Part shown: one piece after another, positions 1-7,247 of the stretch
Position numbering within the stretch: the stretch's first letter is position 1
How the letters are laid out: each line of letters begins with the position of its first letter
NCBI GenBank assembly: GCA_903862645.1
Contig: CAIOZF010000251.1
Coordinates: 1-58,181, forward strand
Direction of reading: 5' to 3'
Origin: an uncultured Gammaproteobacteria bacterium
Lineage (GTDB): Bacteria; Pseudomonadota; Gammaproteobacteria; Pseudomonadales; Pseudohongiellaceae
Length of the DNA: 58,181 nt
Position numbers and translations under genes: made by a program
Notes under the pieces: model-generated
The model's database searches: none
Seen by the model: only the letters and a program-made list of their open reading frames with translations
What the model was told of the DNA's origin: nothing

Positions 1-2585
1 ACGAGCCCCTGCCGGCGGCCCAGTACGCCGCGCGTCGCTATCTCGAATATGCCATGAGCGTGGTTACCGGCCGCGCTCTGCCCGATGTGGCCGACGGCCA
101 GAAGCCGGTGCAGCGTCGCATCCTGTTCGATATGCATCGGATGGGGTTGTCCGGCCAGCCCAAACATGTGAAGAGTGCGCGGGTGGTCGGCGATGTGATC
201 GGTAAGTACCACCCGCATGGTGATACGGCAGTATATGACACCATCGTGCGCATGGCTCAGAGCTTCTCTCTGCGCTATACGCTGGTGGATGGTCAGGGTA
301 ACTTCGGTTCCGTGGATGGCGACATGGCCGCGGCGATGCGCTACACCGAGATCCGCATGGCGAAGATCGCTCACGATCTGATGGCCGACCTCGACAAGGA
401 AACCGTCGATTTTTCCGACAACTATGATGGCACCGAGAAGATCCCGGATGTCTTCCCCACCCAGATTCCCAACCTGCTCGTGAATGGCTCCTCCGGCATC
501 GCTGTCGGAATGGCGACCAATATTCCTCCACACAACCTGCGTGAAGTGATCGATGCCTGTGTGGCGTTGTTGGATAACGACGAAATCACCATTGATGAGC
601 TGATGGAGCACGTCAAGGGTCCGGACTTTCCGACCGCCGCGATCATTAACGGTCGGGCAGGCATCATAGAGGCCTACAAAACGGGTCGTGGTCGAATCTA
701 TCTGCGTGCGCGTGCCGAGGTCATCGAAGACGAAAAGACCGGACGCCAGACCATCATCGTGTCTGAGATACCCTATCAGTTGAACAAGGCCCGATTGATT
801 GAGCGTATCGCCGAACTCGTCAAGGAGAAGAAGCTTGAGGGTATCTCCGAGCTGCGCGACGAATCGGACAAGGATGGTATGCGCATCGTCATTGAGCTCC
901 GTCGTGGCGAGGTCGGCGAAGTCGTTCTGAATAACCTGTACGCCCAGACCCAGATGCAGTCCGTGTTTGGAATCAATATGGTGGCACTCGTCGATGGGCA
1001 GCCCCGACTTTTGAATCTGAAGGAGATCATTCAATCCTTCATTCGTCACCGTCGCGAAGTGGTCACGCGCAGAACCGTATTCCTGCTGCGCAAGGCTCGC
1101 GAGCGTGGACATATCCTTGAAGGTCTCGCAGTGGCATTGGCAGATATCGATGCGGTCATTGCACTGATCAAGGAATCGCCCTCTACCACTGAGGCCAAGG
1201 AAAAGCTTCTGGCTCGGTCCTGGCGCGCAGCGAGCGTGCTGCAATTGCTGGGTGATGCGGGCGCCGATGCCTGTCGTCCGGATGAATTACCCCAGGAATT
1301 CGGGATGCGCGGCCAGGATTACTATCTGTCGCCTGTGCAGGCTCAGGCTATTCTTGAGTTACGTCTGCACCGTCTAACAGGGCTGGAACAGGAGAAGCTG
1401 ATCAACGACTACCAGGAGCTGTTGCGTCAAATCGCAGACTATCTGGATATTCTGGGCAGTGAGACGCGACTTTTTTCTGTGGTGCGTGAAGAGCTTGCGC
1501 TGGTGCGTGAAAACTACGGTGACGATCGCAAAACTGAGATCATCACGTCTCAGCTCGATCTGTCCATGGAAGATTTGATTACCGAGGAAGATCGTGTCGT
1601 GACGATTTCTCGTACCGGTTACGCTAAATCTCAGCCACTGTCTGACTACCAGGCCCAGCGTCGTGGTGGTATGGGCAAGGCCGCAGCGTCCGTCAAGGAC
1701 GAGGATGTAGTGGAACATCTGCTGATCGCCAGCAGCCACGACACGCTGTTGTGCTTCACCAGCTCCGGCAAGGTCTATTGGCTGCGGGTATTCAATATTC
1801 CGCTGGCCAGCCGTACCTCGCGTGGTAAGCCTATCGTCAACATCCTGCCGCTGGAAGAAGGTGAGCACATCACCAGCCTCCTGCCGATCAAGGAGTACAC
1901 CGAAGGTCATTTCATTTTCATGGCGACCCGTCAGGGAACAGTCAAGAAGACCTCGTTGACCAGTTTCTCCCGTCAGCGTAGCGTTGGTTTGCGTGCGATC
2001 GAGTTGGATGAAGGGGATACACTCATCGGGACAGCACAAACCGATGGCCAGCGCGACATCATGTTGTGCAGTACCAGCGGCAAGATGATTCGGTTCCGTG
2101 AGACCGAAGTGCGCGAAATGGGGCGCACTGCCCGTGGTGTGCGCGGTATTCGGCTTGCGGCAGGTCATGAAATGATTGCATTGATTATCCCCGAGGACGG
2201 CAAGCAGGTGCTGACGGTCAGTGAGAACGGCTACGGCAAGCGCACTCATAATGAAGATTTCCCTCTCTATGGTCGTGGCGGCCAGGGGGTAATCGGCATG
2301 CAGACCAGCGAGCGCAATGGTCGCGTGGTTGGTGCCACACAAGTTGCCGATGGTGAGGAGATCATGCTGATTTCCGACAGGGGCACTCTGGTCAGAACTC
2401 GCGTCGACGAGATTTCTGTGCAAGGACGTAATACCCAGGGTGTGCGTCTGATCAAGCTCAAGACTGACGAGAAGCTGGTTGGACTCGAGCGGGTGGAAGA
2501 ACCTGAGGTACCAGAAGAGCAGTTTGCGGGAGATGATGCCAGCGCGGAAATCCTGGACACTGAACAGGAAAACTCTGAAGAATAA
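1..2585 (+). CDS. gyrA: DNA gyrase subunit A, 5' end cut by the window
   Basis: The open frame enters from the window edge (codons in phase with base 3) and gives about 860 residues. It is the breakage-reunion subunit of gyrase, which partners GyrB to supercoil DNA. Visible landmarks are the quinolone-resistance region [10 protein letters not shown] (Thr where E. coli has Ser83, as in P. aeruginosa, and the Asp87 equivalent kept), the catalytic tyrosine in [10 protein letters not shown], the GyrA box QRRGGMG near base 1650, a beta-pinwheel C-terminal domain and an acidic tail. The last point separates it from ParC, which lacks that box. Oddity: the first 60 or so residues ([19 protein letters not shown] and [10 protein letters not shown]) look like a betaproteobacterial-type ParC, and the first 180 bases are about 66% G+C against about 59% in the next 180. 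The identity downstream is certain; the 5' end is doubtful. Confidence 0.96.
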
Positions 2586-2605
2586 ACCGGCGGGAAGCAT
2601 TGTCT

Positions 2606-3478
2606 GTGACTAAGTCTGCAAGTAGAAGTGCCGGGGAGGGCGGTGACGTTGTTGCCTTCCTCGGTCCGCATGGCACCTTCACCCATGCTGCCGTGGACAG
2701 GTATTTTGGGCCTGACGCGGAAAAGCTCAGCGTCCCGGGCATCGATGACGTCTTCGTTGAGGTGGAAGCCGGGAGGGCCCGCTATGGCGTAGTTCCGGTG
2801 GAGAACTCGACAGAAGGGGCCGTCAATAACACCCAGGATTGCCTGACTGATACTTCGCTCAATATCATTGCCGAGGTTATCATTCCCATCGAGCACAATT
2901 TCCTGCTTCGTTACGACGCCGAGCCTGCCAAAGTTTCGCGCATATTGTCTCATCGGCAGTCGCTTGCCCAGTGCCGTCGCTGGCTCAAGACTTATTGGCC
3001 ACAAGTTCCAACCCACGAGGTCAGCAGCAATGCGGAAGCGGCTCGTCAGGCATCTGAAGATCCTTCTGTGGCGGCGATTGCCGGCGAGCGGGCAGCATCA
3101 CTCTACGGTCTTAAAATTGAAACCCGACAAATTCAGGACCAGCGCAATAACAGCACGCGCTTTCTGGTGTTGGCGCAAACGCTGACGCATCCGACAGGTC
3201 GTGATAAGACATCGATCCTGGTGTACACCGAAAACAAACCCGGAGCGTTGTTCCGCGTGCTGGAGCCTTTCGAGAAACAGCAAGTCAGTCTTACGCGGAT
3301 TGAGGCGCGTCCTGCCAGGGACAGCATCTGGGACTATGTGTTTTTCATTGATTTCGAGGGGCATCGCGATGATCCCGCCGTCCAGAAGGTCTTTACGCAA
3401 CTGCAGGGGCGGGCTGTCAAGATAAAAAATCTGGGTTCTTACCCTATGGCACTGAGCCTCAGTGGTGAGTCAGCATGA
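2606..3478 (+). CDS. pheA: Prephenate dehydratase (PDT-ACT, no chorismate mutase domain)
   Basis: This enzyme converts prephenate to phenylpyruvate, the committed step to phenylalanine. About 290 residues: the dehydratase domain has GPHGTFTHAA near the N-terminus, NSTEGAVNNT, and the catalytic NNSTRFLVL motif. A C-terminal ACT domain (KTSILVYTENKPGAL, then RIEARP) should bind phenylalanine for feedback inhibition. In Pseudomonas and E. coli PheA a chorismate mutase domain of roughly 90 residues precedes the dehydratase; here the gene starts only about 20 bases after gyrA, so that domain is absent. I prefer the GTG at 2606 because GGGAAG lies 8 bases upstream; an in-frame TTG at 2600 is too close to that site. 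The stop overlaps the next start (ATGA), suggesting translational coupling to tyrA-cmk. Confidence 0.95.
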   Translation: MTKSASRSAGEGGDVVAFLGPHGTFTHAAVDRYFGPDAEKLSVPGIDDVFVEVEAGRARYGVVPVENSTEGAVNNTQDCLTDTSLNIIAEVIIPIEHNFLLRYDAEPAKVSRILSHRQSLAQCRRWLKTYWPQVPTHEVSSNAEAARQASEDPSVAAIAGERAASLYGLKIETRQIQDQRNNSTRFLVLAQTLTHPTGRDKTSILVYTENKPGALFRVLEPFEKQQVSLTRIEARPARDSIWDYVFFIDFEGHRDDPAVQKVFTQLQGRAVKIKNLGSYPMALSLSGESA

Positions 3479-5079
3479 GCCTGTTGCAAAGTAAGAGCGT
3501 ATTAATAGTAGGGCTAGGACTGATCGGTGGCTCCGTTGCACGTGGTCTGCGGCGACGAGACCTCTGTCGCACGATATACGCCTGTGGTCGTGATGAGCGC
3601 CCGCTTCAAGAGGCCCAAAACGACGGCGTGATAGATGGATGGGCCACCGATATCAGAAAACTGGCGCCGCAGGCGGATATCATCCTGATATGTGTGCCTA
3701 CGCTGACAGTGCGCAATGTATTCGAACAACTTAAAGATGTGGTTTCTGCCTCGACTATTCTCACCGATGCGGCGAGTGTAAAGGGTAGCGTGGTTGATGA
3801 TTTTCGAGCGGTATTCGGAGACGATTGCGGTCAGTTTGTGCCTGCTCATCCTATCGCAGGCTCCGAACAGAGTGGGTACCAGGCCTCAACCGCCGACTTG
3901 TTCAACGCCCGTAAAGTAATTCTGACCCCCTTGGTAAACACTGACCCGCAGGCTCTGCAGGTGGTAACGCAGCTGTGGCAGGACCTGGGTGCGGTAGTGA
4001 GCCAAATGGGCGTAGAAACTCACGATGCGGTGCTGGCGGCCACTAGTCACCTGCCGCATCTATTGGCATATTCGTTGGTGAATACGCTGGCGCATCAACA
4101 GCAGACTGACGATATCTTTCGGTATGCCGCGGGTGGATTTGCAGGTTTTACTCGCATAGCCTCCAGCGATCCGGTGATGTGGAGAGATATCTTCCTCGCC
4201 AACGGACCCGCAACGGTTGCGATACTAGACGCTTATCTGCAGGAGTTGGGGCATATGCGCGAGGCTATCGTATCTGGCAACGGCGAATTGTTGCGAGGCA
4301 GTTTTCAGGCTGCTAAAGAGGCACGTCATAACTTTGTCAGCAGCCATTTTTCCACTGGCAATGGCACGGAGGGGCATACCCCTGACGTTCAGGTTGAGTC
4401 ACTGCAGCAGACAGCGCCGGTGCTTACGATTGATGGACCGGGCGGATCAGGCAAGGGAACCATTAGTGCACGAGTGGCTCAGGTTCTAGGCTGGCATTAT
4501 CTGGATAGTGGAGCCTTGTACAGACTGCTTGGTCTGGCAGCAAGACGTGCTGGGGCCTCCACGGCGGACGCTGTCGCGTTGTTGCCGATCATCGACCGAA
4601 TGAGGATTAGTTTCGGTCCCGAGCAGGGTTCTGCCTGGCTTGATGGGGAAGATGTGTCTTCCGAATTGCGGACAGAAATCAGTGGGCGCGCCGCTTCAGA
4701 GGTCGCCGTTCACCCAGCAGTACGGGCGGCGCTATTAGCTCGACAACACGGTTTTAAACAGATGCCAGGGCTTGTGGCGGATGGGCGGGACATGGGGACT
4801 GTGGTTTTCCCCGATGCGCAGATAAAGATTTATCTGACGGCGTCCATTGAGGAGCGCGCAAATAGGCGGTATAAGCAGTTGATTGCAAAGGGTATTGATG
4901 TTAACCTCACCGACCTTTTTGCAGATATAAAGACGCGTGACGAGCGGGATTCTTCCCGAGTCGCCTCTCCGCTGAGACCTGCGGATGACGCTGTCTGGAT
5001 AGAGACGACTGAAATTGGCATAGAACAAGTGGTAGCACTGGTGCTGGATTTGGTTCGCCAACGCTTGCCGTCTGCATGA
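3475..5079 (+). CDS. Fused prephenate dehydrogenase and cytidylate kinase (TyrA-Cmk)
   Basis: One uninterrupted 534-residue frame carries two complete enzymes. Residues 1 to about 290 are TyrA: the NAD-binding GLGLIGGS at 13-20, PAHPIAGSEQSG with the catalytic-region histidine, and ATSHLPHLLAY. Residues about 316-534 are cytidylate kinase: P-loop GPGGSGKGT at 321-329, YLDSGALYR, the family signature DGRDMGTVVFPDA, and the LID arginines in RDERDSSR. A linker of roughly 25 polar residues joins them. TyrA makes 4-hydroxyphenylpyruvate for tyrosine; Cmk phosphorylates CMP and dCMP. Many gammaproteobacteria have a TyrA-AroA fusion here with a separate cmk behind it; no AroA sequence is seen, as if aroA had been deleted and the flanks joined in frame. 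All key motifs look intact, so both activities are likely. An assembly deletion of aroA is the alternative. Confidence 0.93.
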   Translation: MSLLQSKSVLIVGLGLIGGSVARGLRRRDLCRTIYACGRDERPLQEAQNDGVIDGWATDIRKLAPQADIILICVPTLTVRNVFEQLKDVVSASTILTDAASVKGSVVDDFRAVFGDDCGQFVPAHPIAGSEQSGYQASTADLFNARKVILTPLVNTDPQALQVVTQLWQDLGAVVSQMGVETHDAVLAATSHLPHLLAYSLVNTLAHQQQTDDIFRYAAGGFAGFTRIASSDPVMWRDIFLANGPATVAILDAYLQELGHMREAIVSGNGELLRGSFQAAKEARHNFVSSHFSTGNGTEGHTPDVQVESLQQTAPVLTIDGPGGSGKGTISARVAQVLGWHYLDSGALYRLLGLAARRAGASTADAVALLPIIDRMRISFGPEQGSAWLDGEDVSSELRTEISGRAASEVAVHPAVRAALLARQHGFKQMPGLVADGRDMGTVVFPDAQIKIYLTASIEERANRRYKQLIAKGIDVNLTDLFADIKTRDERDSSRVASPLRPADDAVWIETTEIGIEQVVALVLDLVRQRLPSA

Positions 5080-5105
5080 TCCCGATCAGTAAAAGTTTTT
5101 ATTGC

Positions 5106-5177
5106 TCTGTACTCGAATCGCCAGCATTTGTCGGGTACAGGGCTTTTAGTAATAGCCCCGTATGAGCTGGAATACGG
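5106..5177 (+). promoter_or_regulatory. rpsA leader hairpins, candidate S1 autoregulatory site
   Basis: Between cmk and rpsA lie two hairpins. The first pairs CTCTGTACTCGA (from 5106) with TCGGGTACAGGG using wobble pairs. The second is a perfect six-pair stem CCGTAT/ATACGG (5158-5177) whose eight-base loop GAGCTGGA carries a GGA. In gammaproteobacteria, S1 represses its own mRNA through leader hairpins with GGA-bearing loops, so this fits that role by analogy. No T-run follows, so neither is a terminator. The regulatory role is inferred. Confidence 0.45.
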
Positions 5178-5204
5178 TTAATCTTGAAATTTACAGGAAA
5201 AACG

Positions 5205-6881
5205 ATGAGTGAAAGTTTCGCGGAATTATTTGAACAAAGTTTAAAAGACATTGATATGACCCCTGGTGCCATCGTCACCGGTGTGATTATAGATATCGAT
5301 TCGGACTGGGTGACAGTCCATGCTGGTCTGAAGTCGGAAGGGGTGATCCCACGAATTCAGTTCCTAGATGAGAATGGCAATTTCTCATTGTCAATTGGCG
5401 ATTCAGTGAAAGTTGCGCTGGAATCCGTTGAAGATGGTTTCGGTGAGACCCGGCTGTCCAGAGAGAAAGCCAAGCGCGCCGAATCTTGGATGGATTTGGA
5501 AGCAGCGTTCGAGAAAAATGAAGTGGTCATGGGTGTTATCAATGGCAAAGTCAAAGGCGGCTTTACTGTTGACCTGAACAACATTCGTGCGTTCCTCCCA
5601 GGCTCTTTGGTTGATGTACGCCCAATCCGCGATACAACCCACCTGGAAGGTCAGGAACTTGAATTCAAACTGATCAAGCTGGATCAGAAGCGCAACAACG
5701 TCGTGGTTTCACGTCGCGCTGTACTGGAAGCTGTCAGCACTGAAGAGCGTGATGAACTTCTGGCCGCGCTGCAGGAAGGGATGTCAGTCAAAGGCGTCGT
5801 CAAGAACCTCACCGACTACGGTGCATTCGTGGATCTGGGTGGCGTAGATGGCCTGCTGCATATTACCGACATGTCTTGGAAGCGTATCAAACACCCAAGC
5901 GAAATCGTCAATGTTGGCGACGAGATTCAGGTCAAGATCCTCAAGTACGACCGAGAGCGCAACCGCGTGTCTCTGGGGTTGAAGCAGCTTGGCGAAGATC
6001 CATGGGTCGCTATCAAAGCTCGTTACCCTGAGAAGTCAGTGGTCAAGGCGACTGTTACCAACCTGACCGACTACGGCTGTTTCGCGGAGTTGGAGCAGGG
6101 TGTTGAGGGACTGGTACACGTCTCTGAAATGGACTGGACGAACAAGAACGTTCACCCATCCAAAGTTGTACAGTTGGGTGATGTAGTAGACGTAATGATT
6201 TTGGACATCGACGAGGAAAGACGTCGTATTTCTCTGGGGATCAAGCAGTGCTTCCAGAATCCGTGGGATCGTTTTGCCGAGACGTACAAGAAAGGCGACA
6301 AGATCAGCGGCAGCATCAAGTCGATTACCGATTTTGGAATTTTCATTGGTCTGGAAGGTAACATCGACGGTCTGGTTCACCTGTCCGACATCTCTTGGGA
6401 AGAGCCAGGCGAAGAAGCTGTTCGCGCGTACAAGAAAGGTGATGAGATCGAAACTGTTATTCTGTCCATCGACTCTGAGCGCGAGCGTATCTCTCTGGGC
6501 ATCAAGCAACTGTCTGACGATCCGTTTGTCAGCTACGTTGGCGAGTTCGAGAAGGGTAGCATCGTGAAAGGTGTTGTTTCTGCAGTAGATGCGAAATCTG
6601 CTACCGTAACTCTGACCGAAGGTGTCGAAGGTGTTCTTCGTGCTTCTGAGATCAGCAGAGAAAAAGTGGAAGACGCTAGAACCGTTTTGAAAGAAGGCGA
6701 CGCAGTAGAAGTCAAAGTTATCAGTGTTGATCGCAAGAGCAGAGTGCTTGGCCTCTCTATCAAAGCGATCGAAATCGATGATGAGAAGTCAGCAATCCAA
6801 GAGCATAAGAATCAGGAGCCAACTTCGGCTGCACCGACTACCATCGGTGACCTGATCAAAGCAGAGATGGACAAGAAATAA
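5205..6881 (+). CDS. rpsA: 30S ribosomal protein S1
   Basis: S1 delivers mRNA to the 30S subunit. The 558-residue product matches the usual length (557 in E. coli) and contains six S1 RNA-binding repeats. The later four are easy to see from [50 protein letters not shown] and the final [11 protein letters not shown]. Between them recur RVSLGLKQL-type strand ends. The start [13 protein letters not shown] at 5205 has AGGA about 6 bases upstream; an earlier in-frame TTG at 5184 would add seven unsupported residues. It follows tyrA-cmk by 125 bases holding leader hairpins and precedes ihfB, the standard cmk-rpsA-ihfB order. Confidence 0.98.
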
Positions 6882-6950
6882 TTTCTGCGACTGCTTGTTT
6901 CGGTTTGCAGTGCTGTTTCGAACGCAGTATTTTTTTACAGGTAATAGGCC

Positions 6951-7247
6951 ATGACGAAGTCTGAACTTATTGACAGAATTGCAGGAAAACAGAGCCAGTT
7001 GTCATCGAAAGATGTCGAGCTGTCGGTGAAGGCAATGATTGAATATATGTCTCAGGTGTTATCGGAAGGTGGTCGTATTGAAATCAGAGGGTTCGGTAGC
7101 TTTTCATTACACTACCGAATTCCTCGCGTTGGACGTAACCCCAAGACCGGAACTCCGGTTTCGTTAACTGGGAAGTATGTTCCACATTTCAAGCCTGGTA
7201 AGGAGCTGCGTGATAGAGTCAATCTCAGCCTGGATACTCATCCCTGA
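6951..7247 (+). CDS. ihfB: Integration host factor subunit beta
   Basis: A 98-residue DNA-bending protein of the HU/IHF family. The signature [15 protein letters not shown], the GRNPKTG turn at the tip of the beta-arms, and [14 protein letters not shown] at the C-terminus are typical of IhfB rather than HU. It pairs with the alpha subunit encoded at 22288. It follows rpsA by 69 bases with ACAGGTAATAGGCC as the ribosome-binding region. A rho-independent terminator candidate lies about 45 bases after its stop, so the rpsA-ihfB unit probably ends here. Confidence 0.97.

Follow-up and report, generated by a model that had tools for sequence, protein, structure and literature searches.

Fusion of prephenate dehydrogenase (TyrA) and cytidylate kinase (Cmk) at the usual place of aroA in a genus of Pseudohongiellaceae

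Contig CAIOZF010000251.1 of an uncultured gammaproteobacterium of the family Pseudohongiellaceae (assembly GCA_903862645.1; 58,181 nucleotides, called the window below) encodes a single protein in which prephenate dehydrogenase (TyrA) is joined to cytidylate kinase (Cmk). The same full-length, unbroken TyrA-Cmk frame is present at the same locus in 13 of the 14 genomes of the window's genus and in 0 of 43 others; the 57 genomes searched comprise the window's own genome, 13 others from its genus, 22 from the family and 21 from the order. The architecture is thus shared by close relatives, which an earlier reading of the window's letters (the original prediction) had named as a point to check. 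The protein is likely a bifunctional TyrA-Cmk polypeptide born by replacement of AroA, deletion of the native copy and in-frame joining. In the following, g1 denotes the window's genus and g2-g8 its sister genera, while G and L numbers are genomes and loci of this comparison.

The fused protein and its conservation in the genus

The open frame at 3475-5079 of the forward strand runs from ATG to TGA and encodes 534 residues. Among Pfam matches, which were counted when above the curated cut-off, PDH_N covers residues 21-175 (model positions 1-152 of 154; 116.8 bits against a cut-off of 26.5), PDH_C residues 181-277 (3-100 of 102; 92.2 bits against 22) and Cytidylate_kin (PF02224) residues 318-528 (2-210 of 211; 232.9 bits, above its cut-off). 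The domain search called for by the original prediction therefore returned all three domains near full length. The frame also passes the cut-off of the NCBIfam equivalog TIGR00017 for Cmk (231.1 bits, cut-off 135.55). The dehydrogenase part (residues 4-269) aligns to prephenate dehydrogenase 3ggg with E 1.7e-60, and the kinase part (from residue 313) to cytidylate kinase 1cke with E 5.8e-66. The motif GLGLIGGS is found at residues 13-20 and the P-loop GPGGSGKGT at 321-329; Pfam, the open frame and the motif positions agree on one 534-residue frame holding a TyrA and a Cmk, each close to full length, in line with the earlier claim. In the TyrA part, GxGxxGG is the dinucleotide loop, and the SHLPH motif is present as well.

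The 12 other fusions of the genus are 63-79% identical to that of the window. In the fourteenth genome, G009, neither the DNA of window positions 2000-7247 (an empty answer without a positive control, which by itself shows nothing) nor Cytidylate_kin found a match, so that its locus is likely missing from the assembly (a gap). Two wider, overlapping samples were searched as well, one of 390 genomes from the order and another of 369 from the class, with matches listed by E-value and full-length ones first; no other unbroken TyrA-Cmk frame was recognized among the matches listed. Some stop-free listed matches run past the TyrA part within frames of TyrA-AroA size; that of G378 extends to query residue 483, and AroA was found inside this same frame. 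The genome of the window is a draft of 254 contigs, in which an assembly or frameshift artefact might have created the junction, but 13 genomes, belonging to different species and differing in their linkers, all have the stop-free junction. An artefact is rejected on this ground, its probability being negligible.

The motifs GLGLIGGS, HPIAGSE, SHLPH, GGSGKGT, DGRDMGTVVF and RDERD are kept in the alignment of all 13 fusions, in accordance with the earlier impression that both active sites look intact. The linker has 9-22 residues, is poorly conserved and lies between a conserved HF/YF and PVLTIDG/PVLAIDG; no remnant of AroA could be recognized in it by eye. The ratio of nonsynonymous to synonymous substitution rates (dN/dS) was 0.06-0.14 for the TyrA part (5 of 7 pairs calculable), 0.03-0.18 for the Cmk part (6 of 7) and 0.11-0.64 for the linker (6 of 7), the remaining pairs being saturated at silent sites. 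The TyrA and Cmk halves are both under purifying selection, the linker less so. PF02224 detects a single Cmk in 13 of the 14 genomes of the genus, in every case the fused one (frames of 529-588 residues), and a search of the window's own genome with the whole protein gave one match only. The fusion would have been retained since each half is the sole copy detected of an enzyme that the cell needs.

Internal initiation or proteolysis of the linker might supply the two enzymes also, or only, as separate proteins. The linker is polar and short, that of G007 contains an ATG at -10 with AAGG 7 bases upstream, and several fusions have a GTG at -4 or -6. However, the 13 fusions share no start codon that is preceded by a ribosome-binding site: an in-frame ATG occurs in the linker of 2 of the 13, and G008 and G002 have no ATG, GTG or TTG within 20 codons before the DGPGG of the kinase. 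A supply of separate enzymes is therefore held to be very improbable, and production of Cmk from an internal start was rejected, no conserved start having been found. Without a shared internal start and with a single Cmk, one obligate bifunctional polypeptide is the simplest reading. To judge from the sequences, both activities probably persist, and each domain would most likely catalyze, independently of the other, the reaction established for its family.

The gene row and the AroA encoded elsewhere

The features of the locus, all on the forward strand, are as follows.

54-2585, forward: gyrA, 5' end apparently truncated by the contig start (open reading frame; 66-95% identity to the same-position gene in relatives)
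2600-3478, forward: pheA, prephenate dehydratase and ACT domain, without a chorismate mutase domain (Pfam PDT, ACT)
3475-4350, forward: TyrA (prephenate dehydrogenase) half of the fused gene, residues 1-292 (Pfam PDH_N, PDH_C; 3ggg alignment)
4351-4416, forward: variable linker, residues 293-314, 22 residues here (alignment of 13 fusions)
4417-5079, forward: Cmk (cytidylate kinase) half of the fused gene, with the stop codon (Cytidylate_kin, TIGR00017, 1cke alignment)
5184-6881, forward: rpsA, ribosomal protein S1 (open reading frame; 64-97% identity to the neighbor in relatives)
6951-7247, forward: ihfB/himD-like gene, conserved flank (open reading frame; conserved in relatives)

The locus order is gyrA, pheA, tyrA/cmk, rpsA and ihfB, where gyrA, rpsA and ihfB/himD-like are presumed names, assigned with the help of synteny. 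The gene rpsA is the usual downstream neighbor of cmk. The stop of pheA and the start of tyrA overlap as ATGA at 3475-3478. In sister genera g2, g3, g5, g6, g7 and g8, AroA lies between tyrA and cmk (gene order from 1-2 genomes each), which bears out the claim that TyrA and Cmk are joined where aroA normally sits. With a threshold of E 1e-5, AroA gave no match within the window's first 12 kb.

Three side observations concern this gene row. The PheA of the window has no N-terminal chorismate mutase domain; on contig 182 of the same genome, an open frame of 204 residues contains a CM_2 domain. A weak terminator-like hairpin lies at window positions 5158-5177, between the fusion and rpsA; four such hairpins were counted in the region, little more than the mean of 2.2 for shuffled sequence. 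At locus L090 of G031 (4040-6471), gyrA matches are spread over three frames, as frameshifts or errors of assembly might cause.

The genome of the window contains two genes of the 5-enolpyruvylshikimate-3-phosphate (EPSP) synthase family. The gene on contig 235 matches AroA weakly and is taken to be MurA-like. The gene on contig 227 encodes a stand-alone AroA of 429 residues beside a DUF349 gene and an acyltransferase gene, so that the check for aroA elsewhere in the genome had a positive outcome and the candidate explanation that AroA is absent from the genome is ruled out. The protein aligns to 3nvs with E 3.6e-191 and to 1g6s with E 4e-187, as against E 5.9e-40 for 3tr1; the source organisms of these three entries are assumed. 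On these alignments it is classified as an E. coli-type EPSP synthase, unlike the 3tr1 type. AroA of the contig 227 type was matched in all 14 genus genomes, the match in G006 being a 52-residue fragment and the copy in G011 being cut by the contig end. The DUF349 neighbor accompanies AroA at 10 of 12 genus loci examined and at 0 of 11 g4 loci, and is absent from the g7 contig (flanks mostly of 1.5 kb).

The AroA of the tyrA-cmk locus in g2, g3, g5, g6, g7 and g8 is only 27-33% identical to the AroA of the window's genome. The possibility that the native aroA was simply translocated is ruled out, the other AroA being of a different type, and because this other AroA is of the E. coli type, the native domain was probably replaced before it was lost. 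In the proposed history, the ancestral row would have been gyrA-pheA-tyrA(-)aroA-cmk-rpsA, with aroA fused to tyrA or separate. An E. coli-type AroA would have been acquired elsewhere in the chromosome, the native AroA would have become dispensable and been deleted, and this deletion, in an ancestor common to the genus, would have left tyrA and cmk as one continuous frame. Of the earlier proposal, the deletion of aroA and the in-frame joining are retained, while replacement by an E. coli-type AroA had not been foreseen. In the product, a short flexible linker would tether an N-terminal prephenate dehydrogenase to a C-terminal CMP/dCMP kinase. Cmk would be under the translation start of tyrA, which overlaps pheA, and the fusion would fix a 1:1 ratio.

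Erosion of AroA in a sister genus and the order of events

In sister genus g4 the TyrA frame extends about 305-345 residues beyond TyrA residue 286 in all six genomes read (L084, L085, L086, L087, L158 and L159). The tails contain no stops (6/6), and at the four loci measured 11-76 bases separate the tail stop from the aligned start of cmk. By tblastn, native AroA gave nothing against the g4 tails at E 1e-5 (1e-4 for two loci). A native AroA profile matched the six tails at E 1.3e-16 to 0.0026 (6-sequence set), and a g4 tail profile matched the native AroA of g7 at E 1.1e-29 (8-sequence set), values that are flattering because the sets hold only 6 and 8 sequences. An hhalign comparison of the g4 tail with native AroA (268 columns) gave a probability of 98.4 and E 1e-14; approximately the central part of the protein is absent. 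The motif PGDKS is absent from the tails (6/6), and the proportion of nonsynonymous differences (pN) is 0.46-0.58 in the tails versus 0.18-0.32 in TyrA (15 pairs; silent sites near saturation). An E. coli-type AroA, 72-79% identical to that of the window's genome, was found elsewhere in all 11 g4 genomes searched. As far as its sequence tells, the g4 tail is an eroded, in-frame remnant of native AroA that looks catalytically dead. As a natural experiment, it may tell whether folding, regulation or translation coupling is what preserves a dead domain.

Outside the family, seven genomes of other families (G040, G048, G074, G192, G234, G235 and G762) carry tyrA and cmk in a shared frame that a single stop interrupts between the two; G040 and G048 also turned up in the 57-genome search. 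These seven were found irrespective of the type of AroA, and six of them (all except G074) have an E. coli-type AroA of 59-72% identity. The E. coli type, defined in the order sample by a best E of at most 1e-140 and counted by hand, is thus found in 6 of 7 such genomes versus 79 of 390 genomes of the order, although the seven are phylogenetically dependent because three belong to one family, f6. At locus L162 of G762 (1012-3096) one TAG separates tyrA from cmk, and the first ATG of the kinase follows eight codons on; the AroA elsewhere in this genome is of 63% identity. In four further genomes (G108, G187, G273 and G344) tyrA adjoins cmk with no AroA between them, and in G150 and G330 no cmk is present within the stretch read. 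These six are not evidence for the association, since they were chosen for having an E. coli-type AroA together with a TyrA frame that is not of TyrA-AroA size or not full. Acquisition of an E. coli-type AroA is common, genomes frequently hold both copies, and the native one has been lost more than once; within these samples, loss has turned into a TyrA-Cmk fusion only in the window's genus.

A tree of concatenated GyrA, RpsA, PheA, TyrA and Cmk from 18 genomes groups g1 with (g4+g7) at 100/100 (SH-like approximate likelihood ratio test, SH-aLRT, and bootstrap, respectively). The AroA tree contains a clade of g1 and g4 at 100/97. Acquisition of AroA in the ancestor of g1 and g4, followed by deletion in g1 and erosion in g4, would be the most plausible story in outline.

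Several observations count against this history or its simplest form. G074 has tyrA-stop-cmk but a different AroA (33%) and no E. coli-type copy. Among the 79 E. coli-type genomes of the order, 38 have three EPSP-synthase-family matches; one of these (G183) reflects a split gene, and in the remaining 37 the third match is taken as native AroA, as in the rows of G042, G082 and G143. About half therefore seem to keep both AroA, and acquisition does not force loss. In the five-gene tree g7 is the sister of g4 (98.6/98, SH-aLRT/bootstrap), and a GyrA-only tree of 23 rows also joins g4 and g7 (84/82, bootstrap/SH-aLRT). Since g7 has an intact native AroA, the loss in g1 and the erosion in g4 would be separate events, and g4 is then a parallel case and not a direct intermediate. 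The AroA tree, unlike the gene-row tree, splits g4, with seven g4 rows grouping with g1 (92/86), and 0 of 11 g4 AroA loci share either neighbor gene with g1 within 1.5 kb. Owing to this split and the unshared neighbors, one acquisition at one place is not established. The second AroA of g7 falls outside g1+g4 and is placed elsewhere weakly (92/70), so that a single acquisition including g7 is not supported by the AroA tree. The contig that carries this second, E. coli-type AroA of g7 (L161; G019 contig 281) is 6.9 kb long, its genome has 7% contamination, and the gene may be real or a contaminant.

The g4 tails also bear on why tyrA and cmk remain connected. An unbroken translational path from tyrA to cmk may itself have been selected, g4 having kept a dead AroA open and g1 having deleted it; CMP kinase output would then be tied to translation of the tyrosine pathway. 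The open dead domain of g4 together with the g1 fusion suggests this, the seven tyrA-stop-cmk genomes show lineages without such a path, and the idea is considered unlikely. It is less probable still that the fusion is kept for a function of its own, either a fixed 1:1 ratio of TyrA to Cmk or modulation of one domain by a ligand of the other pathway (tyrosine, NAD, CTP or CMP). Such a function would agree with the presence of the fusion in 13 genomes, down to 63% identity, and with the dead-looking g4 tail that stays open to within 11-76 bases of cmk, as if the path mattered. Against it, the linker varies in length and sequence and is weakly constrained, Pfam detects no extra domain in the 534-residue protein, the seven genomes of other families keep tyrA and cmk adjacent and split by a stop, and a single-copy fusion persists without the need of an added benefit. 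The suggestion in the original prediction that tyrosine synthesis is coupled to CMP phosphorylation found no backing, be it as a functional or as a regulatory coupling, beyond one polypeptide and equal stoichiometry, and no sign of allosteric communication between the two domains was seen. The preferred reading remains a bifunctional protein left by the replacement and deletion of AroA.

Comparison with known fusions

Gene fusions are often taken as signs of functional coupling, the "Rosetta stone" inference. For the TyrA-Cmk pair, history and gene order suffice, and caution is therefore advised with that inference. The case would illustrate a change of partners in a multi-enzyme protein, in which a stand-alone gene of another type assumes the function, the former domain decays or is excised, and neighbors from unrelated pathways end up in one protein.

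The TyrA-AroA (TyrA-AroF) fusion of the upper-gamma Proteobacteria (NF011381) has the same N-terminal TyrA at the same locus, and this arrangement is found in g5, g6 and g7 as open frames of 740-793 residues. It differs in its partner, which is AroA instead of Cmk, and the fusion of the window, which matches only model positions 4-286 of 733, reaches 364.7 bits where the cut-off is 902. The AroA-Cmk fusion NF008816 shares the C-terminal Cmk and the gene row but has AroA in place of TyrA at the N-terminus; here the match is limited to model positions 440-659 of 662 and, at 282.6 bits, stays below the cut-off of 943. As a separate observation, a 664-residue frame of G428, a 73% complete genome of the same family, reads AroA and then Cmk (L116, 1483-3477); its AroA is 52% identical to that of the window's genome, unlike those of its congeners, and may be contamination. 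Other Cmk fusions likewise have an unrelated partner, namely pantoate-beta-alanine ligase/Cmk (NF010004) and Cmk/Der GTPase (NF007071), and differ in what that partner is (209.5 against 524 bits and 141.4 against 953 bits). No TyrA-Cmk fusion was found in the open-access literature searched.

The closest precedent comes from Song et al. 2005, according to whom Pseudomonas syringae has a TyrA with a truncated AroF domain and a foreign stand-alone aroF (PMC1173090). The likeness is that the AroA fused to TyrA decays where a foreign stand-alone AroA is present, and g1 also has an AroA of another type elsewhere in the genome. The difference is that about 200 AroF residues are deleted in P. syringae and a remnant stays on TyrA, as in g4, with no joining to Cmk described in the section on the fusion with aroF (PMC1173090). 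Given this precedent and the outcome of the literature search, the mechanism appears to be of a known kind, while the pair of partners looks new.

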